Shown here: piece by piece, positions 4,061 to 20,331 of the stretch
Layout: the number at the start of each line of letters is the position of its first letter
Position numbering within the stretch: the first letter of the stretch is position 1
From: Spirochaetes bacterium RBG_16_49_21
Lineage (GTDB): Bacteria > Spirochaetota > UBA4802 > UBA5550
NCBI GenBank assembly: GCA_001829495.1
Contig: MIBJ01000055.1
Span: forward strand, 3,498 to 58,829
Direction of reading: 5' to 3'
DNA length: 55,332 nt
Translations under genes and position numbers: made by a program
Notes under the pieces: model-generated
The model's database searches: none
Told to the model about the DNA's origin: nothing
The model's input: the letters and a program-made list of their open reading frames with translations, nothing else

Positions 4061-5041
4061 ATGCTGCATCCGGCTATTGAAAAGGCTTACGCGATTCTCG
4101 ACGGAAAGCCTGTTGACAAAAAAACATTCTCGGAATTGTCCACGGTGAAGGGCAGGGATATTCTCGATCTGGCGTCCCTTGCGGGAAAGGTGAGGGATAC
4201 ATTCGCGGGCGGGTTCCATGCCTGCACCATCATGAACGCCAAGTCCGGGGCCTGCCCGGAAGACTGCCGGTTTTGCGCCCAGTCAACCCACCATGACACG
4301 CGGATCGACCGGTACGGACTCGTTGATGAGGATATAATTCTCGATAAAGCGCGGGAAGCCTACGGCACCGGCGTTGACTGCTTCGGAATCGTAACCAGCG
4401 GAACCGGCTACATAAAAATGACCGCGGAATTCAAACGTATTATTGACGCCATCGACCGGATACATGAAAAATATCCTGATAAAAAGGTATGCGCCGACCT
4501 GGGGCACCTTTCAGAAGAAACCGCGCTGGAGCTCTCCAGGCACGACATCGCGCATTATAATATCAATATCCAGACAAATCCCGAGAAGTATCAGGACCTG
4601 ATATCGAAAACCCACGGCATTAATGACCGGATACAGACCATCCTGCTTTTGAAAAAACATGGCATGGAGGTCTGCTCCGGCGGCATCATCGGCCTGGGCG
4701 AAACCATCCAAGACCGGCTTGCCATGGCATTCAGCCTCAGGGATCTGGACGTTGACGTGATCCCGCTCAACGTGCTTATCCCCATACCGGGAACGCCGCT
4801 TGAAAAGATGGAGCCGCTCCCTGCTTCGGAGATCGTAAAGACATTCGCGCTGTTCCGGCTGATCAACCCAACCAAAATAATCAAATTTGCGGCTGGCCGC
4901 GAGACCAGGATGAAGGATTTTCAGGGACTCATCATGCTGGCGGGAGCGAACGGCTTCATAACCGGCGGCTATCTTACCACGCGGGGCAGAGAGGTGAAAG
5001 ACGACCTTGACTTCATGGATGAATTGCGCAAATTTCAATAA
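4061..5041 (+). CDS. bioB: Biotin synthase
   Basis: A 326-residue radical-SAM enzyme that inserts sulfur into dethiobiotin, the last step of biotin synthesis. The [4Fe-4S] cysteines that bind SAM are C65, C69 and C72 in CPEDCRFC. The sulfur-donating [2Fe-2S] cluster ligands are visible as the Cys of DCFGIVTSG, the Cys of KVCADLG, the Cys of VCSGGIIGLG and the Arg of AAGRETR. Length is normal for the family. AAGGAG lies seven bases before the ATG. It is the first gene of a biotin cluster: bioA follows after 10 bases. Nothing visible suggests loss of activity. Confidence 0.97.
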   Translation: MLHPAIEKAYAILDGKPVDKKTFSELSTVKGRDILDLASLAGKVRDTFAGGFHACTIMNAKSGACPEDCRFCAQSTHHDTRIDRYGLVDEDIILDKAREAYGTGVDCFGIVTSGTGYIKMTAEFKRIIDAIDRIHEKYPDKKVCADLGHLSEETALELSRHDIAHYNINIQTNPEKYQDLISKTHGINDRIQTILLLKKHGMEVCSGGIIGLGETIQDRLAMAFSLRDLDVDVIPLNVLIPIPGTPLEKMEPLPASEIVKTFALFRLINPTKIIKFAAGRETRMKDFQGLIMLAGANGFITGGYLTTRGREVKDDLDFMDELRKFQ

Positions 5042-5051
5042 AAAACCGACC

Positions 5052-6362
5052 ATGAAGCACGCATCCATGGATACCAGATCAATTGAAGAGCTCCTCGCCT
5101 ATGACCGGGAGCATATCTGGCACCCCTACGCCTCGATGGGACATCAGTCAGTGGTTTACCCGGTCGTATCGGCATCATCGGTGCGGCTCAATCTGGCAGA
5201 CGGCCGGGAGCTCATTGACGGGATCTCATCCTGGTGGTGCGCGATCCATGGATACAATCATCCCGCACTGAACGAGGCCGCGATCACGCAGATCCGGGCC
5301 ATGTCCCATGTGATGTTCGGCGGTCTTACCCATCAGCCGGCACGGGAGCTCGCCGCGCTTCTCGTCGACCTGGCACCGAGGCCGTTGGATAAGGTATTTT
5401 TCTGCGACTGCGGCTCGGTGTCGGTGGAGGTGGCGATCAAAATGGCCGTTCAGTACTGGCACGCCATAGGGAAAAAAGAGAAGACAAAGCTCATCACCGT
5501 AAAATCCGGCTACCATGGAGACACCTTTCTCGCCATGTCGGTCTGCGATCCTGTTGAAGGTATGCACCAAATGTTTCAGGGTATTCTGCCGGCACAGACG
5601 TTCGCGGATGCCCCGCAGTGCGGCTTCGATGATCCCTGGGATGACCGGTATATTAAATCCTTTGAACGGCTTATCCGCGAGCATCACCAATCACTAGCGG
5701 CAGCGATACTCGAACCCATCGTCCAGGGAGCGGGCGGGATGCGCTTTTATGCTCCCGAATACCTGCGCAGGGTCCGCGATCTGTGCGACCGGTATGAGGT
5801 ACTCCTGATTTGTGACGAAATCGCCACCGGATTCGGAAAAACAGGAAAGCTCTTTGCCTGCGAGCATGCGGGTATCAGCCCGGATATTATGTGCCTGGGC
5901 AAGGCGATCACCGGAGGATACATGAGCCTTGCCGCGACCCTCACCACCGAAAAGGTGAGCGATGCAATCTCAAACGGCGCGCCCGGGCTGTTCATGCACG
6001 GCCCCACCTTCATGGCCAATCCGCTCGCATGCGCGGTTGCAGTCGCCAGCATACGCCTCCTCCTCTCCATGCCGTGGCAGGACGCCATACGGAGAATAGA
6101 AGGGCAGCTCACCGCCGAATTATCACCCTGCCGCAGGCTTGGCCCTGTCGCGGATGTGCGCGTTCTGGGAGCGATCGGCGTTGTTGAGCTGGAGCGGCCC
6201 GTTGACGTCGTGAAAACCGTTCGACTGTGCGCGGAACAGGGCGTATGGCTTCGGCCGTTCGGAAAGATACTATACACCATTCCCCCGTATATTATATCCG
6301 ATCGCGACCTTTCGCGGGTCACCGGCGCGATCCATCACGTCGTGAAAGCGGGAGCGTTCTAG
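5052..6362 (+). CDS. bioA: Adenosylmethionine-8-amino-7-oxononanoate aminotransferase
   Basis: PLP-dependent aminotransferase that converts 8-amino-7-oxononanoate to 7,8-diaminononanoate using SAM as amino donor, the second of the four steps encoded here. Family hallmarks are the N-terminal REHIWHPYASM, GISSWWCAIHGYNHP, the LICDEIATGFGKTG segment with the PLP-binding Asp, and LGKAITGGYMS with the Schiff-base Lys. The start is uncertain: the frame is open from 5007, inside bioB, and no candidate has a good Shine-Dalgarno sequence. I chose ATG 5052 (436 residues) because its N-terminus length fits the family; ATG 5067 also fits. It stops 3 bases before bioF. Confidence 0.95.
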   Translation: MKHASMDTRSIEELLAYDREHIWHPYASMGHQSVVYPVVSASSVRLNLADGRELIDGISSWWCAIHGYNHPALNEAAITQIRAMSHVMFGGLTHQPARELAALLVDLAPRPLDKVFFCDCGSVSVEVAIKMAVQYWHAIGKKEKTKLITVKSGYHGDTFLAMSVCDPVEGMHQMFQGILPAQTFADAPQCGFDDPWDDRYIKSFERLIREHHQSLAAAILEPIVQGAGGMRFYAPEYLRRVRDLCDRYEVLLICDEIATGFGKTGKLFACEHAGISPDIMCLGKAITGGYMSLAATLTTEKVSDAISNGAPGLFMHGPTFMANPLACAVAVASIRLLLSMPWQDAIRRIEGQLTAELSPCRRLGPVADVRVLGAIGVVELERPVDVVKTVRLCAEQGVWLRPFGKILYTIPPYIISDRDLSRVTGAIHHVVKAGAF

Positions 6363-6365
6363 ATC

Positions 6366-7580
6366 ATGAACCGCGTCCTATACCAGACATATGAAAATGA
6401 GCTCGCGGACATTAAAAAAAGAAATGCCCACAGACACCTGAAGAGCATTCTCAGCAGGGACGGGAGGTTCGTTACCTATGAAGATAAAAGGCTCCTGAAC
6501 CTGTCCTCCAATGATTACCTGGGATTTGCGTCCGACCGGCGTATGCATCAAGAATTCTACCGGCATTTCGGCTCACATGACCCGATCGATTCCTTCGGCC
6601 TGGGAGCCTCATCCTCCCGCCTTCTTACCGGCGATCATTCATTGTATACCGAACTGGAGAGCACACTGTCCGGATTATACTCGGAAAACGCCGCAGCCGT
6701 TGATCATGATCATGCCGGGAAACAAGCCCTTGTCTTCTCAAGCGGATATCACGCGAACACCGGCATTCTTCCCGCATTGGCCGGCGCGGGCGATCTCATC
6801 TGCTCCGACGAGCTGAACCACGCAAGCATCATCGACGGCATCCGGCTGTCCCGCGCCGAATATATCGTGTACGGGCACCTCGATTATGACGAGCTCGTCC
6901 GGAGTTTGACGAAGAAGCGCGGCTCCTTCCGCAACGTGGTCATAGCGACGGAATCGGTCTTCAGCATGGATGGCGATGTTGCGGATCTTAAAAGGCTCGT
7001 TGGAATCAAAAACAATTTCAACGCGCTCCTCTATGTCGACGAGGCTCATGCCGTCGGCGTGTTCGGCGATGCCGGCCTCGGGATATGCGAGCGGGACGGG
7101 GTGATTGCGGACGTCGATGTCATCGTTGCCACATTCGGCAAGGCCCTCGGCTCTGTCGGAGGCTATGCCGTGACAGCGCCGATACTCCGGGAATATCTCA
7201 TAAACAGGGTCCGGCCGTTTATCTTCTCTACCGCGCTGCCGCCGGTCATAATAAACTGGAATTTATTCACCTTGCGGGAGATGAAGCAATGCAGAACAAA
7301 ACGCGAACAGCTCATGCGATTATCAGAGACGTTCCGCGCCGCCCTCGCTCAGGCAGGTTGCGCAACAGGGGGTCAGAGCCAGATAGTGCCGGTGATATTC
7401 GGCGATAACGACCGGTCGATTCAAGCCGCCGAAGCCCTTCTGAAGCGGGGATGTCTCGTGTTCCCGATCAGACCGCCCTCCGTCCCCGAAGGAGGCGCGC
7501 GAATAAGAATATCACTGAGGGCGGACATGGAGTGGGACGACCTGAAAGAGATTCCCGATATTGTACGAGCATTTATGTAA
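6366..7580 (+). CDS. bioF: 8-amino-7-oxononanoate synthase
   Basis: A 404-residue PLP enzyme that joins pimeloyl-thioester and L-alanine with loss of CO2, the first committed step of the pathway. Seen in sequence: LSSNDYLGFA near 42-51, GLGASSSRLLTG, SDELNHASIIDG, the YVDEAHAVGVFG segment with the PLP Asp and His, and TFGKALGSVGG with the catalytic Lys. Length is slightly above the usual 385 residues, partly through a short insert near the AAAVDHDHAGKQ stretch. GGGAG inside the end of bioA lies about 11 bases upstream, and the 3-base gap suggests translational coupling with bioA. Confidence 0.95.
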   Translation: MNRVLYQTYENELADIKKRNAHRHLKSILSRDGRFVTYEDKRLLNLSSNDYLGFASDRRMHQEFYRHFGSHDPIDSFGLGASSSRLLTGDHSLYTELESTLSGLYSENAAAVDHDHAGKQALVFSSGYHANTGILPALAGAGDLICSDELNHASIIDGIRLSRAEYIVYGHLDYDELVRSLTKKRGSFRNVVIATESVFSMDGDVADLKRLVGIKNNFNALLYVDEAHAVGVFGDAGLGICERDGVIADVDVIVATFGKALGSVGGYAVTAPILREYLINRVRPFIFSTALPPVIINWNLFTLREMKQCRTKREQLMRLSETFRAALAQAGCATGGQSQIVPVIFGDNDRSIQAAEALLKRGCLVFPIRPPSVPEGGARIRISLRADMEWDDLKEIPDIVRAFM

Positions 7581-7590
7581 GTTAGGCGGG

Positions 7591-7731
7591 ACTCGATTAA
7601 AAACTCCCTCCCCCTTGACGGGGGAGGGCTGGGGTGGGGGTGAAAAAAGTCAATACCTGAGTTTACTTTAATCACCCTCCCCTAACCCCTCCCATCAAGG
7701 GAGGGGAATAAAAAATTCGCCTAAATCGAGT
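7591..7731. repeat. Palindromic repeat between bioF and bioD
   Basis: Ends ACTCGATT and AATCGAGT are exact inverted repeats. Inside are two GC-rich hairpins, CCCTCCCCC with GGGGGAGGG and CCCCTCCC with GGGAGGGG. It is the only thing separating bioF from bioD and resembles the other palindromic elements in the window in build, though not in base sequence. Confidence 0.75.
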
Positions 7732-7753
7732 GATTTAAATAACGGATACCTTC

Positions 7754-8434
7754 ATGGGAATCACTTTTATCACCGGAATCGATACCGGCATAGGTAAAAC
7801 CTACGCGACAGGGCTCCTCGCCCGTTTTTTACTCAAACAGGGGAAATCGGTAACCACTCAGAAGGTCGTTCAAACCGGATGCGAGAGTATATCCGAAGAT
7901 ATCGCCGTTCACCGGAAAATCATGGGGATAGGTTATACCGATGAAGACCGGAAAGGGCTCACCTGTCCCTACCTCTTAACATTACCGGCATCGCCTCACC
8001 TGGCTGCCCAAGCCCAGGGCATAAGGATCGATCTCGAAACCATCTCTGCAGCAACGGATTATCTGTTGCGCAAATACGACCATCTGCTGGTGGAAGGCGC
8101 GGGCGGGATATACGTGCCCCTGAATGATGATGCAACCCTGATCGATTATCTTGCCGTAAAACGATATCCGGTGATAATCGTGAGCTCGCCGCGTCTCGGG
8201 AGCATCAATCATACCCTCATGACCCTTGAGGTTCTAAAACAGAGGGATTTGGAAGTCAAGGGCATCATCTACAACTCCTGCCTGAAAGAAAAAATTGAAA
8301 TTTCAGAAGATACAAAAAAAATTTTCATCAAATTTCTCTCCAAATTCGGTTTCACAAGAGTCGTTGTGGAAATCCCGGAAATTGATTTAGACAATATCCC
8401 GGATATCGATTTTTCCCCCTTACTCCCAGGGTGA
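7754..8434 (+). CDS. bioD: Dethiobiotin synthetase
   Basis: A 226-residue ATP-dependent enzyme that closes the ureido ring of dethiobiotin from 7,8-diaminononanoate and CO2. The P-loop is GIDTGIGKT at 8-16, followed by the VVQTGCES substrate-binding region (family KPVxTG) and LLVEGAGGIYVPL, the second nucleotide and Mg-binding motif. Lys of the QKVVQTG segment replaces the usual KxxKP spacing only slightly, so activity is expected. It is set apart from bioF by 173 bases of repeat, but lies on the same strand and completes the pathway. Its last 15 bases overlap the end of the convergent lipoprotein gene. Confidence 0.95.
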   Translation: MGITFITGIDTGIGKTYATGLLARFLLKQGKSVTTQKVVQTGCESISEDIAVHRKIMGIGYTDEDRKGLTCPYLLTLPASPHLAAQAQGIRIDLETISAATDYLLRKYDHLLVEGAGGIYVPLNDDATLIDYLAVKRYPVIIVSSPRLGSINHTLMTLEVLKQRDLEVKGIIYNSCLKEKIEISEDTKKIFIKFLSKFGFTRVVVEIPEIDLDNIPDIDFSPLLPG

Positions 8435-9277: not shown

Positions 9278-9493
9278 AGGATCCCCCGCAATGTTATACG
9301 ATCGGGGATCCATTTTAAAAAAAAATTTTTGAATTTTGTGAAGGCGGGGGTATTTGCGGATTGATATATTCAAGCGTAATCATCATTGCTGACGCTTTGT
9401 GGTGTTTGCCGAGGTGGTTTTTGTCCGCACTCAAAATTTTGCCAGAATTTGCCAGAGAAGAAAGAAAAATGATTGCGTAATTAATAAAATGAG
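9278..9493. other. AT-rich spacer at the left edge of the otsA block
   Basis: No gene seen. Composition shifts here from balanced to strongly AT-rich, and the shift continues to about 11990. I searched for a copy of the tRNA-Leu 3' end that would mark an attachment site and saw none. Confidence 0.5.
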
Positions 9494-9522
9494 TTGTAAT
9501 ATTTTTATGTTAAAGATACTAT
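9494..9522 (+). promoter_or_regulatory. Candidate promoter of the otsA fusion gene
   Basis: TTGTAA at 9494-9499 and TACTAT at 9517-9522 with an exact 17-bp spacer, each matching four of six consensus bases. Transcription from here would give a leader of about 110 bases that contains the hairpins and terminator described next. Confidence 0.4.
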
Positions 9523-9544
9523 TAAAATGAAATAGCTCTTGGGT

Positions 9545-9597
9545 CCAGAGATAATTTTATATTTCTGGAGACATTGGGTAGTCGGGCCGCTATCCCA
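9545..9597 (+). promoter_or_regulatory. Structured leader with possible antiterminator
   Basis: A short stem CCAGA (9545-9549) with TCTGG (9564-9568) is followed by TGGGTAG (9575-9581), which can pair with CTATCCCA (9590-9597) with one bulged base. That pairing uses the 5' arm of the downstream terminator, so the two structures exclude each other, as in attenuators and riboswitches. I do not recognise a known riboswitch class. Confidence 0.35.
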
Positions 9598-9620
9598 TTT
9601 CAAAAGGATAGCGGTTTTTT
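9587..9620 (+). terminator. Intrinsic terminator upstream of the otsA fusion
   Basis: Perfect 9-bp stem CCGCTATCC / GGATAGCGG with a 10-base loop, followed by six T. It lies only 18 bases before the start codon of the next gene and ahead of its Shine-Dalgarno sequence, so it either controls that gene or ends an earlier transcript. Confidence 0.8.
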
Positions 9621-9638
9621 GTTTTAGAGGAGAAACGT

Positions 9639-11876
9639 ATGAGAAGGATACTTTTATTTGTTTTGCCGATTTTAATAATTGTTTCAGTTGCCTTTACTAT
9701 TTTTGGAATATTTCAGGTACGTTTTGAAGAAGAGAAATTAATCGATGATTTAAAACGCAAAGCAAAATCTGTTGCTGAAAGCATGGATTTGTCAGTAAAG
9801 CATCTTCTTATAACTGCTGATCTGAAGAATGCTAATTACCTTGTTGAAAAATTTGAAGCCCGAGAGAGACTGCAAGGTTGCGTTATATATAATAAAAAAG
9901 GACAAATTCTGGCGATTACAAAAAAATTTACCGATTGGAAAAACAAAGAAAAACCATATCTTAAAGAAGTTTTAAATAATAAGGAGCCGCGAGGAGAATT
10001 AGAAAAGTTTAAGGAGTATACCGTATATAGCTACATTCTGCCTATTTTAGATGATGAGAGGAAAATTTTAGGATTGGTTGAGGTCATTCACGATACCTCA
10101 TATGTATTTACAAGATTGGCCGAACTCTGGAGGAGGATTAGTATTACCTTAATAAGTTTAGTAATCTTAATTTTATTCACCTCTATTTTTCTCAATAGAC
10201 AAATTTTTGTTCTACCTGTTCAACGCCTCACAGAATGGTTTAGACACTTTCAGAAAGGCGAAATTGACGATAGGCACCCAATTAAGGAGAAGGGCGAATT
10301 GGGGAAACTCGCTAGTGAAGTGGAACAGGTTGCTTTAAGTTTAAGAGTAGTGCGCCGGACAATTTCAGATGAGGCATTAATACGTTTACAAAAAGAAGAA
10401 CTATGGACAGAGGAAAAGTTAAGAAACCTTATTCATGCTAAATTGGGAGAAAATGCCCTCTTCGTAGTCTCAAATAGGGAGCCATATATGCACGTCTTAG
10501 ATGAGACTACTGGCATGACGAAATGCATTAGCCCCGCCAGCGGAGTGGTTACTGCCATACATCCTATTTTATGCGCTTGTGGAGGTACTTGGATTGCTCA
10601 TGGTAGTGGTAACGCCGATAAAAAATTTGTCAATTCCAAGGACAAGCTTGGCATTCCTCCAGAAGACAACCGTTATATCTTAAAAAGGGTGTGGCTGACG
10701 AAAGAGGAAGAAGAAGGATATTATTATGGATTTGCTAATGAAGGTTTATGGCCGCTTTGTCACAATACTCATACTCGGCCTATCTTTAGAGAGTCGGATT
10801 GGCAGATGTATAAAAAGGTAAATCAGAAATTCGCAAGCAGTATCTTAGAAGAATTACCCGCAAGGAATCCTTTTATTTTTATCCAAGACTATCACTTTAC
10901 CTTGCTTGCCAAGATGATCAAAGAAAAACGCCCGGATGCAACCATTGCTTTATTCTGGCATATCCCTTGGCCAAACCCCGAAGCCTTCTCAATCTGCCCA
11001 TATCAAGAAGAGATATTGAGTGGAATGTTGGGAAGCGACCTAATTGGATTTCATGTGCAGAATCATTGTAATAATTTCCTTGATACTGCTAATAGACTTC
11101 TTGAATCAAGAGTAGATACCGAAAAGTTTAGCGTGATGCGTTTTAGCAAAGAAACATATATCAGAGCCTTCCCTATTAGCGTAGATGGGCATATACGTAG
11201 TAGGAGTTTTAATGTTGAACCGATTAGAGAGATACAAAGATTAAAGAAGGAATATGAATTAGAAGGAAAAATTGTGGGTGTAGGAGTAGATAGGATTGAT
11301 TACACAAAAGGTATCGTTGAAAGGATATTGGCCATAGATAGATTTTTAGAAAAATATCCTCACTATAAGAAAAATTTTGTTTTTATTCAATTAGGTGCTC
11401 CCAGCCGTACCCATATAAAACGCTATCACGATCTCATGGGAGAAATAGATGAAATAATAGAAAAGAAAAACTGGAAATATCTTGAGGGAGGCTGGAAGCC
11501 GATAATTTATCTGGAGAGGCATTTTTCAGCGGATGAGATAGAGCCTTACTATATGATTGCTGATTTCTGTATTGTCAGTTCCTTACACGATGGAATGAAT
11601 CTCGTTGCCAAGGAGTATGTTGCAGCAAAAAAAGATTTATCCGGGAGTTTAATTTTAAGCCAATTTACGGGCGCCGCCAGAGAACTAACTGATGCCATTC
11701 AGATTAATCCCTATTCTATTGAGGACTTCTCTGAAGCTATAAGACTCGCCATTGAAATGCCAATGGAAGAGAAACGTAAACGCATGGAGAATATGCGCAA
11801 GGTAATAACTGAAAATAATGTCTATCGCTGGGCAGCTAATATCATTACAGAGCTGGCGGCATTAAAGAAGATGTAA
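9639..11876 (+). CDS. otsA: Membrane sensor-HAMP-trehalose-6-phosphate synthase fusion
   Basis: A 745-residue fusion. Transmembrane helix 1 (about 5-25) and helix 2 (about 166-186) flank a 140-residue extracytoplasmic sensor-like region. A HAMP-like segment follows (187-242), then a GT20 glucosyltransferase domain from about 272. GT20 enzymes make trehalose 6-phosphate from UDP-glucose and glucose 6-phosphate. Visible are VVSNREP, QDYHF (416-420), WHIPWP (440-445), DRIDYTKG with donor-binding Arg and Lys (551-558), and DGMNLVAKEY (651-660). The acceptor-side loop reads GGTWIAHGSG, not the classical GGLWVGW type, so the exact product is less certain. AGAGGAG precedes the ATG. AT-rich codon use differs strongly from its neighbours, which suggests transfer. 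Confidence 0.9.
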   Translation: MRRILLFVLPILIIVSVAFTIFGIFQVRFEEEKLIDDLKRKAKSVAESMDLSVKHLLITADLKNANYLVEKFEARERLQGCVIYNKKGQILAITKKFTDWKNKEKPYLKEVLNNKEPRGELEKFKEYTVYSYILPILDDERKILGLVEVIHDTSYVFTRLAELWRRISITLISLVILILFTSIFLNRQIFVLPVQRLTEWFRHFQKGEIDDRHPIKEKGELGKLASEVEQVALSLRVVRRTISDEALIRLQKEELWTEEKLRNLIHAKLGENALFVVSNREPYMHVLDETTGMTKCISPASGVVTAIHPILCACGGTWIAHGSGNADKKFVNSKDKLGIPPEDNRYILKRVWLTKEEEEGYYYGFANEGLWPLCHNTHTRPIFRESDWQMYKKVNQKFASSILEELPARNPFIFIQDYHFTLLAKMIKEKRPDATIALFWHIPWPNPEAFSICPYQEEILSGMLGSDLIGFHVQNHCNNFLDTANRLLESRVDTEKFSVMRFSKETYIRAFPISVDGHIRSRSFNVEPIREIQRLKKEYELEGKIVGVGVDRIDYTKGIVERILAIDRFLEKYPHYKKNFVFIQLGAPSRTHIKRYHDLMGEIDEIIEKKNWKYLEGGWKPIIYLERHFSADEIEPYYMIADFCIVSSLHDGMNLVAKEYVAAKKDLSGSLILSQFTGAARELTDAIQINPYSIEDFSEAIRLAIEMPMEEKRKRMENMRKVITENNVYRWAANIITELAALKKM

Positions 11877-11890
11877 TTTTTTGGTTTGAT

Positions 11891-11990
11891 ATGAAATATA
11901 TTTTTTAAGATTGGAATAAATTAAAAGGCGGCCGTGCAAGAAAATCTGTGGCCTTATTTCTTGATTACGACGGTACGGTAACTTCAATAT
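11891..11990 (+). pseudogene. otsB: Truncated trehalose-6-phosphate phosphatase remnant
   Basis: Read from ATG 11891, the frame gives MKYIF, a TAA stop, then DWNKLKGGRARKSVALF and LDYDGTVTSI. The last part is the N-terminus of OtsB with HAD motif I (DYDGT). Homology ends near 11990, and the remaining 200-odd residues are missing. The next 30 bases run into the tRNA-Leu gene. OtsB normally removes the phosphate made by OtsA, so its loss leaves the fusion without its local partner. The internal stop and the truncation make it a pseudogene. Confidence 0.75.
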
Positions 11991-12022
11991 ACTCATACCA
12001 TGGAAGTCATCCAAAAAACATG

Positions 12023-12200: not shown

Positions 12201-14900
12201 CTATTTATATTTTTTTATTTCCTTTATCCTATACTTATTCTTGCCCTCCTCGGTCTCAAGAACGACCTCGTCGTCCGCCTTGTTCCCCAGGAGGGATTTA
12301 GCGATAGGCGACCGGTACGAAAGAATCCGCTTTTCAAAATCAGCGTCCCACGGCCCGAGGATGGTGTAATCGCGCTCTTCCCCGGTTTTGACGTTCTGCA
12401 GAATAACCCTTGTCCCGACATTAACCGCATCGGCCGACAGGGCATCCAGATCGAGGACATGCGCCTTCTTGATATCGCTGTCAAGCTTTGATATGGAAAG
12501 CTCGAGTATCCCCTGCTTCTCCATCAGCGCATTGTACTCGACATTCTCCCTTAAATCCGCGGAAACATCGGCGACCTTGGTAAGCTCCTTGGAGATGTTC
12601 ACGAGCTCCACCGTGGCCAGATGATCCAGCTCCGACTTCATCTTTTCATATCCTTCCCGGGAAACGATGAGCTTTTCCTCGTCGAACTCCAACGCCTCCC
12701 CGGGCTGGGTCCCGGCCTGCTGAAAATCGCCGTATTTAGCCTTAATGATTGAAAAAAAATTGTCCCTGCGCGCTTCCTCTATGTACGATACATTGCTGAA
12801 AAGGTCGTAGATCTTGCCCAGGAACGGCCGGTCGAACTGCTCCACGATATTCCGGAGCACCGCGGCATTATTGTCAAAGAGCGCCTCAAGCGCCATGTTC
12901 TTCAGTCTGTTGCCCTCGATCTCCATTTTTTTCAGGTCATTCAAAAATCTGAAATAGGCGACCGCAAGCTGCCCGCGGGAATAATCGAGCCAGTCATAAT
13001 CCCACGTTTTGCCGAACAGATTCCGCGCGACCCATATAAAGATCTCAGGGTATTGCTTTGCACCGGTAATCACCCGGTCGATGAAGCCGTTGATGATGTT
13101 GTAGGCGTGTGAACGGATCAGGTTATTGATTATGTACTTATGTATCCTGATCGGCGTCTCGAAGAGAAGCTCTGATAAAACGTGCGGCCAATCGTCCCGC
13201 GACTCCTCGATCAGGCCCACCAGATTCTTTTTATAATCGTAGGAAGAAATTTTCATGGAGAGGAGCGACAGCTCCTGGCTTCCCTTGATGAAGTCGACAA
13301 CCCTCTGGCGCAGGGAATCCAGCTTGAGTTTTGCCGGATCAACGAACTTGGTTAGATCTTTAAGAATCATGTAGGATAGAACTAGCCGCGTGGTCGAATC
13401 CCCTCTCATCTCTTCGGTGAAATAATCGACAAAATATTGAACGACGGAGAGCCCTTCCTCTTTCTCTATGTTGTTCACGAATTCCAGCGCGATGTCCAGC
13501 TTCTTACTGAAAGACTCCGATTTGCTGAAGCTCTCCAGAAGCTCCTCGGCGAAGGTGACCGGCTTGTCGCGCAGAAAAATCAGGTCTTTTTTCTTTTCAT
13601 TGAATCCATAGCGCGGGTCCCTCTTGATCTTCGTCCTCGCCTTGCTCCACCATTTTGACCATCCCTTTTCCGAAACATACGCCGGGATTATCTCGCGCTT
13701 GACATCCTCGAGGAGTATTTTCCCGCCGTACGATTTTAACAGAATATCGAAGAACTGTATGAAATCTTCCTTGAACAAGGTCTTCACGTATTCAATATCC
13801 TCATACTGCATCACGTAGAGGTGATCCTTGCCGATCGGCGTCAGCGACTGCAGCGCCATCGGAATGGACATCTTGTGATCCGTCTTGCCGCTGAAATTGA
13901 TCACGATATTTTCGCTGTCAATGTCGGCGATCTTTCCGAGCTTCCATGTGCCGTGGAAGGCGTAATTTCCCTTGTCGAACACGATATTCTTTTCAAAGTC
14001 CATGATCGCATATTTAGCCGGGGTTTTATAGTTGGCGAGCTTGGAGAGCTTCATGAACTGCTCGAACTGAGAGTGATCCTTATATTTTATCCGATACAGA
14101 TTAATGAGCTCCTTGCGCGCGTGAGTATCATCCGGCCGGTATTTCAGGATCTTTTTTAAAAGCTCTATGGAAAGGTTCGGGTCCTGCTCGTCACGGTACT
14201 TGGGGAGGAGTATCTTCAAAAGGGCGGCAGCCAGATCCATCTGCTTGGCTTCCACGAGAAACCGCTCGATCCTCTCGAAGAAGGAGATATCCTCCCAGGA
14301 TACCGAGGCGAGCTTCGTCCATAAACTCGTGACCTCGTCATATTTCTTATTTTTGATAAAGCCTTCGATACAGAGCTTCATATACTGGATGCTCTTGTCC
14401 GGGTCCTCGTCAATAATAGCGAACGCGAGCTTTTTCGCAAGTTCGGCGTCAAAACGGTCGATCTTCAGCAAGCTTTCCAGCACCGGGATGGCTTCCTTGT
14501 TCCGGCCGAGCCGTTCAAGCGAGAGGGCGAGCGCGCGGAGCGCCGCACTCGACTCGCCGTATTCCAAAATCTTCTCCGCGATCAATTCGACGACGGCCCA
14601 TTTATGGTATCCGGTAAATATATCGATGAGCCGCCGCAGCTTTTTAGATTCTTCGATGCTGTCGATATGGTATCCGATCAGCCCGATAAGATACATTGAG
14701 GTGATGGAATCCGAATGCTCATCGAGGTGACTCCTGCATGAGTCAAGGGTCTCCGGGATCGCGCTCTCGGAAACGACGAGATTGAACAGATCATCCAAAA
14801 TCTTAAATTTTGAGATGCCTATGTCCTTCGGCTCAATCCTGCCCCACAGCTCCTCTTTGAAAAGCGAATCCAGTTTTTCCATTATTTTTTCTTTAGCCAT
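12201..14900 (-). CDS. greA: Giant GreA: helical-repeat protein with C-terminal GreA
   Basis: An 899-residue protein, against about 158 for a standard GreA. The last 154 residues (from about 746) are a full GreA: a coiled coil with the tip acidic residues D782 and E785 in DLRENVEY, then the globular domain that docks on RNA polymerase. GreA stimulates cleavage of backtracked RNA. The first 740 residues are helical repeats, with TPR-like units such as GRNKEAIPVLESLLKIDRFD in the first third. Borrelia and Treponema have the same layout, so this is a phylum marker. Start chosen at ATG 14900 (MAKEKIMEK); the upstream 21 codons look non-coding. Its promoter is not clear. Confidence 0.92.
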   Translation of the reverse strand: MAKEKIMEKLDSLFKEELWGRIEPKDIGISKFKILDDLFNLVVSESAIPETLDSCRSHLDEHSDSITSMYLIGLIGYHIDSIEESKKLRRLIDIFTGYHKWAVVELIAEKILEYGESSAALRALALSLERLGRNKEAIPVLESLLKIDRFDAELAKKLAFAIIDEDPDKSIQYMKLCIEGFIKNKKYDEVTSLWTKLASVSWEDISFFERIERFLVEAKQMDLAAALLKILLPKYRDEQDPNLSIELLKKILKYRPDDTHARKELINLYRIKYKDHSQFEQFMKLSKLANYKTPAKYAIMDFEKNIVFDKGNYAFHGTWKLGKIADIDSENIVINFSGKTDHKMSIPMALQSLTPIGKDHLYVMQYEDIEYVKTLFKEDFIQFFDILLKSYGGKILLEDVKREIIPAYVSEKGWSKWWSKARTKIKRDPRYGFNEKKKDLIFLRDKPVTFAEELLESFSKSESFSKKLDIALEFVNNIEKEEGLSVVQYFVDYFTEEMRGDSTTRLVLSYMILKDLTKFVDPAKLKLDSLRQRVVDFIKGSQELSLLSMKISSYDYKKNLVGLIEESRDDWPHVLSELLFETPIRIHKYIINNLIRSHAYNIINGFIDRVITGAKQYPEIFIWVARNLFGKTWDYDWLDYSRGQLAVAYFRFLNDLKKMEIEGNRLKNMALEALFDNNAAVLRNIVEQFDRPFLGKIYDLFSNVSYIEEARRDNFFSIIKAKYGDFQQAGTQPGEALEFDEEKLIVSREGYEKMKSELDHLATVELVNISKELTKVADVSADLRENVEYNALMEKQGILELSISKLDSDIKKAHVLDLDALSADAVNVGTRVILQNVKTGEERDYTILGPWDADFEKRILSYRSPIAKSLLGNKADDEVVLETEEGKNKYRIKEIKKYK

Positions 14901-14969
14901 ACCACTAACCCATTGCGATAATCGGGGGACAGCATCCCCGGATCGATATTTTGGATTAAACAAAAATAG

Positions 14970-17702: not shown

Positions 17703-17844
17703 TATCCATTCGCGCGACCGGACGGTCGGACGCCTTTTCAACGCTTCATGCCGGAATTTAGTTGACGTTATCAATTTTTGAATGTTCTTTATAGAATAGC
17801 ACGATGCGGGTGCCTTGAGCAATGCGGATCCCGGGAGACGTTTC

Positions 17845-20331
17845 ATGACAAAAGCTATCATCATGGCCGGCGGCGAAGGGACGAGGCTCAGGCCCTTGAC
17901 CTGCAACAGGCCCAAACCGATGGTCCCGATCGTCAACAAGCCCGTTATCGAGCATGTGATCAACCTCCTGCGCAGGCACGAAATCAGGGAAATTGTCATA
18001 AGCCTTTTCTACCTTCCCGAAAACGTGCAGAACTATTTCGGCGACGGATCCGAGTGGGATGTCAACATAACCTACTCAATTGAAGAAACTCCGCTCGGCA
18101 CCGCCGGCGGAGTAAAGGAAGCGGCCGGGGAAATCAATGACACGATCGTGGTATTGAGCGGCGACGGCATTATCGATTTTAACATCACTGAAATACTCGA
18201 ATACCATGAGAAGCGGAAATCACCTTTTACGATTGTGTTAAAAAGGGTTAATAAGCCCACGGAATTCGGAATAGTAATCGCCGATGAACAAGGAAGAATC
18301 GAGCGATTCCTCGAAAAGCCGTCCTGGGGCGAGATATTCAGCGACACCGCCAACACGGGATTATATGTCATCGACCCGGAAATAATACGAACGTATATCC
18401 CCGCAGGACAAAAATTCGACTTCTCCCTGGAGCTTTTTCCCCTTCTTCAAAATAATAAGATCCCCCTGTACGGATACATCGCGGAAGGATATTGGAGCGA
18501 CATCGGAAACCTCACCGCCTACACCGAAGTGCACAAAGACATCCTCAATGGACTGGTGAAAATCGACTTCCCCGGAAAAAAGATCGCCCAGAATATCTGG
18601 GTCGGAAAGGACGTTGAGATTCATCCCGGCGCCCAGATCAAGGGACCGGTCGTGATCGGGAATTTCGTCAGGATCAAGGAGGGGGCGGAGGTGTCGGAAT
18701 TCTCGGTGATCGGCGACAACTGCATCATAGAGAAAAAGGCATCCATCCGCAAAACCGTCATCCTGCACAGCACCATCATCGGTCCTGAATGCGAGCTCCG
18801 CGGCGCGGTGATCGGCAAGCGCTGCGTTCTGGAGCAGCACGTATCCGTATATGAAGGCTCGATCATCAGCGACGATTGTAGAATAGGCGCCGGCGTCGAG
18901 ATCGGCACGGGCATCCGCATCTGGCCGGACAAATCGATCGAGCAGGGAACCAAGCTCGTTCAGGACATTATATGGGGCGCGCGGGAAAAAAAGACCCTCT
19001 TCGGCGCCGAAGGAATCGAGGGCACGTTCAACATCAAGATCACGCCGGAATTCGCCTCAAAGCTCGGATCGGCGATCGGAGCGTTCCTGGGCAAGGACGC
19101 AAAAGCTACCGTGAGCCGCGACACCACCTCCGCCGCCCGGCTCATCATGCGCGCTTTCACCGCAGGGCTGCTCGCCATGGGCGTCGATGTTTACGACCTG
19201 GAGATTGAATCGATGCCGGTCAACCGGTATGCCGCGAGGTTCCTCAACGCGGATATGGGCGTGTACATACAGATATCGCCCATGACGGAGCTCCGGTACA
19301 TACAGATCGACCTATACGACAAGCACGGCTACCGGATATCCACAAGCGACGAAAAAAAAATCGAAAACATATTCTTCCGCGGCGACTATCCCCGGAAAGA
19401 AGCCTTTGAAACCGGCAAGCTCATTTATCCGAGCCGTCACGTGGAATCATATATCAGCAACATTCGCTTCTATCTCGACGATTTTCCCCGCGAAAAAAAA
19501 TGGAAGGTCATCGTCGACTGCTTCAACGGCACCGCCTCCCCTGTGTTCCCCCAAATGCTCTCCGAATACGGCTGCGAGACCAGAGTGCTGCGCGGTCAGA
19601 TCAAGGAATTCACGAGCGAGCGGGAGACAAAATCAGATACGCGCGAGGCGATACAAAACATCGTGGGCATGGCCCGGATGAACCAGGAGATCGGCATAAT
19701 CGTCGGCCCGCACAGCAAAACCATAACCGTTATCGACGAGCAGGGAGAAATTCTGACCGATGAAGACATCATCGCGATCCTGTGCCTGTACTATCTTAAA
19801 TACCGCAACGAGAGGACGATAAATATTCCCGTTTCAGCCTCGATGACGCTCGAGAAGCTCATAACCTCGCGCGGCGGATCAATAACCAGGACCAGCACCA
19901 AGCTCCGGTCGCCGGCAGACGTCACGGATATCTTCCTCGGGGGGGCATCGGGCAGGTATCCGTACCTTGAGCTGCGGTACGACCCCATGTTTATCTTTCT
20001 CCGCCTTCTCCAGTATCTGAGACTTGAAAATGCCACGCTGCACGATATAAAATCGACGCTCCCCAAGGGGAATATCATACATACCTCGATTTATTGCACG
20101 TCGGATGATAAGGCGGCCGTGATGCGAAAGCTGTCCTCGGAGATCGACCAGAAAAAGATCGACCGTATCGACGGCGTCAGGATCAATGAGGGAGACGCCT
20201 GGGTGCTCGTGCTTCCGGATGCCTCCCATCCCCTGCTCCATCTCTACGGTGAGGGGGATACGGCTGAGGTGCGCGACGCCATTATGGAAGAATACTCAGT
20301 CAAAATAAAAAAATACCTGAGCAGCATCTGA
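17845..20331 (+). CDS. Nucleotidyltransferase-hexapeptide-mutase-like fusion
   Basis: An 828-residue three-part protein. Residues 1-235 are a sugar-phosphate nucleotidyltransferase with GGEGTR (9-14), the RPKPM segment with Lys24 and VLSGDGIID. Residues about 255-365 are hexapeptide (left-handed beta-helix) repeats. Residues about 395-828 have the fold pattern of phosphomannomutase/phosphoglucomutase. Such fusions are usually annotated mannose-1-phosphate guanylyltransferase/phosphomannomutase. The mutase part lacks the catalytic phosphoserine loop (QISPMTEL around S478 in place of TASHNP) and the DxDxDR metal loop (GPHSKTITVID at 621-631), so only the transferase half is expected to be active. 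GGGAG seven bases upstream supports ATG 17845. An M20 peptidase gene follows after 13 bases. Confidence 0.85.
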   Translation: MTKAIIMAGGEGTRLRPLTCNRPKPMVPIVNKPVIEHVINLLRRHEIREIVISLFYLPENVQNYFGDGSEWDVNITYSIEETPLGTAGGVKEAAGEINDTIVVLSGDGIIDFNITEILEYHEKRKSPFTIVLKRVNKPTEFGIVIADEQGRIERFLEKPSWGEIFSDTANTGLYVIDPEIIRTYIPAGQKFDFSLELFPLLQNNKIPLYGYIAEGYWSDIGNLTAYTEVHKDILNGLVKIDFPGKKIAQNIWVGKDVEIHPGAQIKGPVVIGNFVRIKEGAEVSEFSVIGDNCIIEKKASIRKTVILHSTIIGPECELRGAVIGKRCVLEQHVSVYEGSIISDDCRIGAGVEIGTGIRIWPDKSIEQGTKLVQDIIWGAREKKTLFGAEGIEGTFNIKITPEFASKLGSAIGAFLGKDAKATVSRDTTSAARLIMRAFTAGLLAMGVDVYDLEIESMPVNRYAARFLNADMGVYIQISPMTELRYIQIDLYDKHGYRISTSDEKKIENIFFRGDYPRKEAFETGKLIYPSRHVESYISNIRFYLDDFPREKKWKVIVDCFNGTASPVFPQMLSEYGCETRVLRGQIKEFTSERETKSDTREAIQNIVGMARMNQEIGIIVGPHSKTITVIDEQGEILTDEDIIAILCLYYLKYRNERTINIPVSASMTLEKLITSRGGSITRTSTKLRSPADVTDIFLGGASGRYPYLELRYDPMFIFLRLLQYLRLENATLHDIKSTLPKGNIIHTSIYCTSDDKAAVMRKLSSEIDQKKIDRIDGVRINEGDAWVLVLPDASHPLLHLYGEGDTAEVRDAIMEEYSVKIKKYLSSI

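Follow-up and report, generated by a model that had tools for sequence, protein, structure and literature searches.

The window analysed here, a stretch of 55,332 nucleotides on contig MIBJ01000055.1 of Spirochaetes bacterium RBG_16_49_21, carries a gene that joins a predicted membrane sensor to a trehalose-6-phosphate (T6P) synthase (TPS) of family GT20 (Table 1). In the ORF list, it forms a single unbroken 745-codon frame starting with ATG. The original prediction of a sensor-HAMP-TPS protein has been borne out in its architecture: the intact ORF encodes a first transmembrane helix (TM1), a Cache-type domain, a second helix (TM2), a HAMP-like linker and a complete GT20 domain, and this Cache-HAMP-GT20 layout is supported by computation on sequence and models. 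The uninterrupted frame, together with 85 sequences of at least 700 residues (the window's included), ruled out a frameshift or a split into two separate genes.

Table 1. Features of the TPS gene and of the segment around it (positions in the window).
Feature	Positions	Strand	Basis
Putative Cache-HAMP-GT20 receptor TPS, 745 aa	9639..11876	+	ORF call, Pfam, AlphaFold2
RBS-like GAGGAGAAACGT 5' of the ATG, with GAGGAGA	9627..9638	+	read from sequence
TM1, ~residues 4-28	9648..9722	+	hydropathy and model
Periplasmic single-Cache-like sensor, ~residues 29-163	9723..10127	+	Pfam, model, Foldseek
TM2, ~residues 164-186	10128..10196	+	hydropathy and model
HAMP-like linker, residues 187-239; P193, G207, L224 conserved	10197..10355	+	Pfam, model, alignment
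Predicted output helix and W256-L261 element, residues 240-269	10356..10445	+	model, alignment, starts of sensor-less relatives
GT20 TPS domain, residues 270-745	10446..11873	+	Pfam, OtsA comparison, Foldseek
Combined span of DNA homology with Omnitrophota loci (best eight listed)	9558..11929		DNA comparison
Broken, truncated donor-type OtsB stub, in-frame stop	11888..11989	+	homology to OtsB queries
tRNA-Leu(CAG), putative right end of the acquired segment	12022..12107	-	also between greA and LTD-type gene in five same-genus genomes

The Pfam match to GT20 spans residues 274-740 (E 1.9e-120) and profile positions 3-472 of 473, that is, its full length. On the N-terminal side, HAMP (residues 191-236) scored 18.7 bits, under the curated cut-off of 25, sCache_3_2 (residues 32-149) scored 17.3 bits, under the cut-off of 28.4, and the NCBIfam WalK model matched residues 5-237 with E 4.5e-10, far under its cut-off. 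Among 31 family members, HAMP was recognized by Pfam at E<=0.01 in 6 and sCache_3_2 in 14. Hydropathy maxima are centred at about residues 10-21 and 169-185, with some 135-140 residues outside the membrane.

AlphaFold2 monomer models were built for 31 family members at full length and for the first 270 residues of 41 members. In the window protein, a helix (residues 2-48) containing TM1 is followed by an alpha/beta domain (50-152); TM2 and the HAMP helix AS1 form one continuous helix (154-205), and the connector, the helix AS2 (220-251) and GT20 come next. Of these helices, AS2 is modelled with the lowest confidence: over its region, pLDDT is 43-57 in the full-length model and 64-73 in the N-terminal one. 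The HAMP linker foreseen at the outset thus appears in the predicted N-terminal part as two helices, a monomer model being unable to display a four-helix bundle. After TM2, this pair of helices carries P193 in 84/85, G207 in 81/85 and L224 in 83/85 of the sequences of at least 700 residues, conserved Pro, Gly and hydrophobic positions which we take to be the HAMP motif. The model also has the Cache features of a long N-terminal helix and a central sheet between two transmembrane helices. With Foldseek, the best match of the N-terminal model was WalK over 255 columns, an entry that is itself an integrative model; the solved sensor domains of WalK, KinD, CitA, DcuS and DctB followed, and the solved Cache domains 4ywz, 2j80 and 3by8 reached target TM-scores of 0.72-0.78. 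The best match of the whole model was OtsA. In sequence and fold, therefore, the TM-Cache-TM-HAMP half resembles WalK/YycG and other Cache-HAMP histidine kinases, whose output is a kinase, whereas the output of the window protein is a biosynthetic glycosyltransferase.

Turning to the enzyme, we compared it with E. coli OtsA at the contact residues named in the portion of PMC6879718 available to us. The residues R280, Y362, D417 and R590 on the acceptor (glucose-6-phosphate) side, and R552, K557, D651, G652-L655 and E659 on the donor (NDP-glucose) side, are identical, and position 419 holds the His of the E. coli enzyme; according to the same portion, mycobacterial OtsA has Gln (Gln146) at this position, and its Arg365, outside the contact set compared here, is less conserved outside mycobacteria (PMC6879718). 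An 'NREPY.H' loop is common to the family, with N279, R280, E281, P282 and H285 invariant in 31 rows, and the R280-G302 loop, variable in length (21-23 residues), is unlike that of classical OtsA. W318, W371 and H441, presumably positions known from OtsA work, are identical to E. coli OtsA as well. OtsA of E. coli and Mycobacterium (GT20; 1uqu, 5jij and others) therefore has the same fold and substrate contacts but carries no sensor and differs in the loop after the first arginine. The score of 411.6 bits with the OtsA equivalog model of NCBIfam, against a curated cut-off of 564.85, makes the protein a GT20 member rather than a canonical OtsA.

From the departure of the acceptor loop from classical OtsA, the original prediction had suggested that the sugar product may differ too; the difference in the loop stood, while the other product did not, the checked contacts being kept and OtsB lying close downstream in 57/72 of the relatives' loci. 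Since the substrate-contact residues are kept, T6P is most likely the product. The notion that this GT20 enzyme makes another sugar, such as glucosylglycerol-phosphate, could draw on the unusual loop and on scores under the curated cut-offs of all four NCBIfam GT20 models that the protein matched; yet the examined glucose-6-phosphate and NDP-glucose contacts are retained, the OtsA model scores far above the glucosylglycerol-phosphate synthase model (296.4 bits), and relatives have OtsB and TreT-like genes as neighbours, so that we rejected it as barely credible.

That similar fusions may exist in databases was also correct. A genome scan yielded 195 relatives; we retained the best 80, mostly from Omnitrophota and Acidobacteriota. 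Other relatives belong to Syntrophales and other Deltaproteobacteria, Elusimicrobia, Victivallis, Margulisiibacteriota, Planctomycetes and Bacteroidota. Some loci of the set are partial, and single hits in a phylum stem from bins and may be misassigned. The family is widespread. Full-length relatives from Omnitrophota are 43-81% identical to the window protein, and 66/117 genomes of this phylum have a match at E<=1e-100; Acidobacteriota, Syntrophales and further lineages have full-length relatives as well. Among the 69 Omnitrophota matches listed, 33 start at query residue 14 or before (sensor present), 31 start at 235-257 (without the sensor, some maybe cut by contig ends) and 5 are otherwise partial, G276 and G320 carrying both kinds. 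In Spirochaetota, only 4/247 genomes match at E<=1e-100, namely the window genome, G008 (a full-length match at 38%), G215 (truncated at a contig end) and G069 (without the sensor); other GT20 enzymes, mostly of the OtsAB type, are commoner there, with a match at E<=1e-20 in 15 of 59 relatives. Between the window protein and the Acidobacteriota and Bacteroidota rows, the sensor is about 23% identical versus 58% for GT20, and such fast evolution of the sensor makes one shared ligand unlikely. Carriage by viruses was considered and dismissed: no relative was found in viral contigs, and four phage records hold GT20 matches of less than 60% identity that lack the sensor. Matches at E<=1e-30 occur in 350 plasmid records, all of them covering at most 80% of the query.

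No function was known to the original prediction for such fusions, and a full-text literature search, with subscription journals largely outside it, agreed in that no description of a HAMP- or Cache-fused TPS was found by title or abstract; the family is thus apparently undescribed within that scope. To our knowledge, HAMP receptors generally have signalling outputs. In its available part, the 2016 Cache census reports that, SMP_2 apart, Cache proteins have outputs known from signal transduction, and it built its models from proteins with such outputs (PMC4822843); given this source, and a Cache part under the Pfam cut-off, the present family could easily have escaped the census. The words 'HAMP' and 'transmembrane' are absent from the first 300,000 characters of a 2024 review of prokaryotic alpha-glucan enzymes (PMC11046441), and a report of trehalose synthesis genes in Omnitrophota mentions no fusion in the text accessible (PMC8542988).

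In the relatives, we counted OtsB within four ORFs downstream (loci with at least 800 bases there) and DUF5752 and TreT-like GT4 genes within six ORFs (loci with at least 2,500 bases). Outside Acidobacteriota, OtsB was present in 47/53 loci, DUF5752 in 42/48 and the TreT-like gene in 40/48; in Acidobacteriota, each was present in 10/19. An MscS gene is the immediate neighbour in 20/80 loci (15 upstream, 5 downstream; flank-less loci counted), in 0/19 of the Acidobacteriota loci, and does not adjoin the window gene. A stricter, distance-based count gave OtsB in 51/72, DUF5752 in 42/59, TreT in 43/59 and MscS directly upstream in 13/64. In the Omnitrophota locus L046, Pfam confirms MscS, Trehalose_PPase, DUF5752 and TreT_GT1. 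Sensor-less Omnitrophota TPS of the NREPY/NRQPY type, found in the present study, are the same type of enzyme with the same neighbours: of the 22 loci fetched, 7 have MscS directly upstream and 18 have OtsB as the next gene, compared with 5 and 10 of 13 further full-length Omnitrophota loci. As these sensor-less relatives share the neighbours, the enzyme itself can do without the sensor. In many operons a DUF5752 gene separates OtsB from the TreT-like gene (L046 9051-9716 and equivalents), and its product is perhaps a regulator or a subunit of a trehalose complex. In the window's own genome, a search found neither DUF5752 nor a close TreT, and two weak GT4 matches (E 8.6e-8 and 7.0e-6) were not accepted as TreT. 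Separately, MscS-type channel genes occur on the opposite strand near the native OtsAB of two same-genus spirochaetes (L158 9726-10799 and L160 8708-9790).

The closest precedent is the MSC-GT-TPSP trehalose synthase complex of Thermoproteus tenax (PMC3634074). As described in the part of that paper at hand, TPS, phosphatase, GT4 glycosyltransferase and mechanosensitive channel are encoded together there, a stress role is proposed, and TPS activity requires the GT, which is reported as closest to PimA; the archaeal enzyme, however, is a TPS-phosphatase fusion for which that part describes no sensor or HAMP (PMC3634074). In the same part, the msc-gt-tpsp operon is called unique to Thermoproteus and Pyrobaculum, with no comparable archaeal or bacterial operon (PMC3634074). 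Bacterial gene sets in part of our relatives are comparable to it in make-up, and at the window locus msc, gt and tps/tpp do not stand in one operon.

A midpoint-rooted tree was computed from the GT20 part of 64 sequences: 24 of the 71 in the first family set, L005, 37 fetched rows, an Aminobacter relative and a haloarchaeal outgroup. L157 (partial) and L106 (the same gene as L119) were excluded, and L119 was labelled as having the sensor although cut by a contig end. All 39 sensor rows and the Aminobacter relative, which has a hydrophobic N-terminal segment and no Cache or HAMP, form one clade (99/96). Two changes of the sensor label suffice for the 64 rows (5%-95% bootstrap range 2-2); with the root among sensor-less enzymes, these would be one gain, i.e. 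the fusion, and one loss, by which the tree can be explained. Alternatively, on the tree alone and its midpoint root, an ancestral sensor may have been lost twice.

The junction itself was followed through the spacing between sensor and enzyme in the 85 sequences of at least 700 residues, sensor-less rows being left out. D152-P193 takes 42 residues in 85/85, AS1 15 in 84/85, AS2 16 in 85/85, AS2 to W256 33 in 80/85, and W256-R280 25 in 85/85; lengths vary in the HAMP connector (18 residues in 69/85) and the acceptor loop (23 in 51, 21 in 32). Such near-constant helix lengths would be expected of a signal-carrying helix; shared descent also preserves lengths. Most sensor-less relatives start at or near W256, where the sensor part ends: among the 22 fetched, a Trp stands at this place within the first five residues in 16 (13 starting M-W), lies further in in L155 and L156 because the ORF caller chose an upstream start, and is missing in 4. 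It has to be weighed here whether the Cache-HAMP part is a mere membrane anchor or scaffold near MscS, OtsB and the TreT-like protein, passing no signal. The hydrophobic segment of the Aminobacter relative and the weak HAMP and Cache scores would suit such an anchor, as would the T. tenax TPS, which, in the part of its description available, acts in complex with an operon partner; nevertheless, one helix would suffice for anchoring, the sensor is kept in 39/40 rows of its clade, and helix lengths are near-constant from Cache to active site, so we regard it as rather unlikely.

Several observations suggest that the gene was apparently acquired from another phylum, from an Omnitrophota-like donor: GC content, nesting, an empty site in relatives, the OtsB stub and a host OtsB without its TPS half. 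The GC content of the gene is 37.5%, against 51.7% for the LTD gene, 49.3% for greA and 48.7% for the window. In two trees it nests in Omnitrophota (11-row clade, support 98; 4-row clade, 100/96). The order greA (76-79% identical), tRNA-Leu, LTD-type gene recurs in all five same-genus genomes, which lack the TPS gene there; in four of them no other gene was called between tRNA-Leu and LTD. In the fifth, G005 (L117 623-1981, - strand), a 452-residue adenylate/guanylate-cyclase-domain protein occupies this spot, so the site seems to collect genes. The stub was matched by 59/62 OtsB queries at E<=0.1 and is 58.8% identical over 34 residues to the L023 OtsB (E 3e-12 for a 145-base target). The full insert may extend over ~9450-12021. 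An assembly chimera is unlikely, as the conserved flanks (LTD gene, tRNA-Leu, greA) run on both sides. A search of the window for a duplicate of the tRNA 3' end came up empty, which leaves integration by tRNA duplication without support, and a promoter scan gave site numbers no higher than in shuffles.

Bifunctional OtsAB is present in 4/5 of the same-genus genomes, and its phosphatase half is 59-62% identical to the stand-alone OtsB of the window genome; the fifth, G001, has neither GT20 (E<=1e-20) nor OtsB (E<=1e-10). The stand-alone OtsB, at G000:C17:173195-173983, adjoins a GH13 gene, in Pfam an alpha-amylase with a maltogenic C-terminal domain, which we assume to be TreS-like. A protein with 82% identity to this GH13 comes after OtsAB in G004 and G002; in G005 and G003 no such gene was seen next to OtsAB. 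Around the stand-alone OtsB, up to a contig end ~1 kb upstream, nothing besides the OtsB half matches OtsAB better than E 0.07. The window gene is the one GT20 match in an assembly 94.7% complete, from which a further TPS could be absent; with the native OtsA half missing, no GT20 TPS besides the acquired receptor form was found there. One could still see in the gene a recent passenger without a role, standing alone as it does, with nothing more of the donor operon than a broken OtsB stub downstream. We judge this quite improbable, because the 745-codon frame is intact and the host, with no other GT20 match, retains OtsB, which suggests replacement.

Elsewhere in the window, a biotin-type gene run of 54% GC (4061-8434; radical SAM with BATS domain, class-III and class-I/II aminotransferases, AAA_26) is likely a second insertion; these genes do not adjoin the LTD-type gene in 8-kb stretches of the five same-genus genomes. 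A GreA/GreB-type factor (12201-14963, - strand, 920 aa; 76-79% across the genus) has a long N-terminal extension with TPR matches, and an 838-aa protein (17815-20331) fuses a nucleotidyltransferase to a phosphoglucomutase/phosphomannomutase-type domain.

Taken together, we consider it on the whole probable that the protein is a membrane receptor-enzyme, acquired from outside, in which a Cache-like sensor signals via HAMP to a T6P-making GT20 domain that feeds the host OtsB. A signal received by the periplasmic single-Cache-like domain would pass through TM2 and the HAMP-like linker to the cytoplasmic GT20, where the HAMP output helix (220-251) would act on helix 258-269 and, beyond it, on the strand that ends close to R280, one of the contacts to glucose-6-phosphate; by rotating or tilting, the helix could control how the acceptor loop closes. 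The enzyme, whose control by the sensor we infer, would convert NDP-glucose and glucose-6-phosphate to T6P, presumably supplying the host's own OtsB, the trehalose-phosphatase yielding trehalose. The signal is probably the osmotic or envelope state, to judge from the MscS neighbours in some relatives, an indirect link. In Sulfolobus, trehalose is required for growth under salt, according to the portion available of PMC7688234. To a wider scheme we give slightly less than even credence: a stress response in one protein, in which a Cache-HAMP receptor has a biosynthetic enzyme as output in place of a kinase, cyclase or chemotaxis domain, so that an outside signal would set compatible-solute synthesis directly. 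In some relatives an MscS channel alongside would release the solute, and the fusion would have travelled between phyla as a plug-in, here displacing the soluble TPS native to the host. If the sensor gates TPS, trehalose synthesis could be switched independently of transcription, and Omnitrophota, with their pairs of enzymes that have and lack the sensor, would offer a clean test of how HAMP drives a metabolic enzyme.
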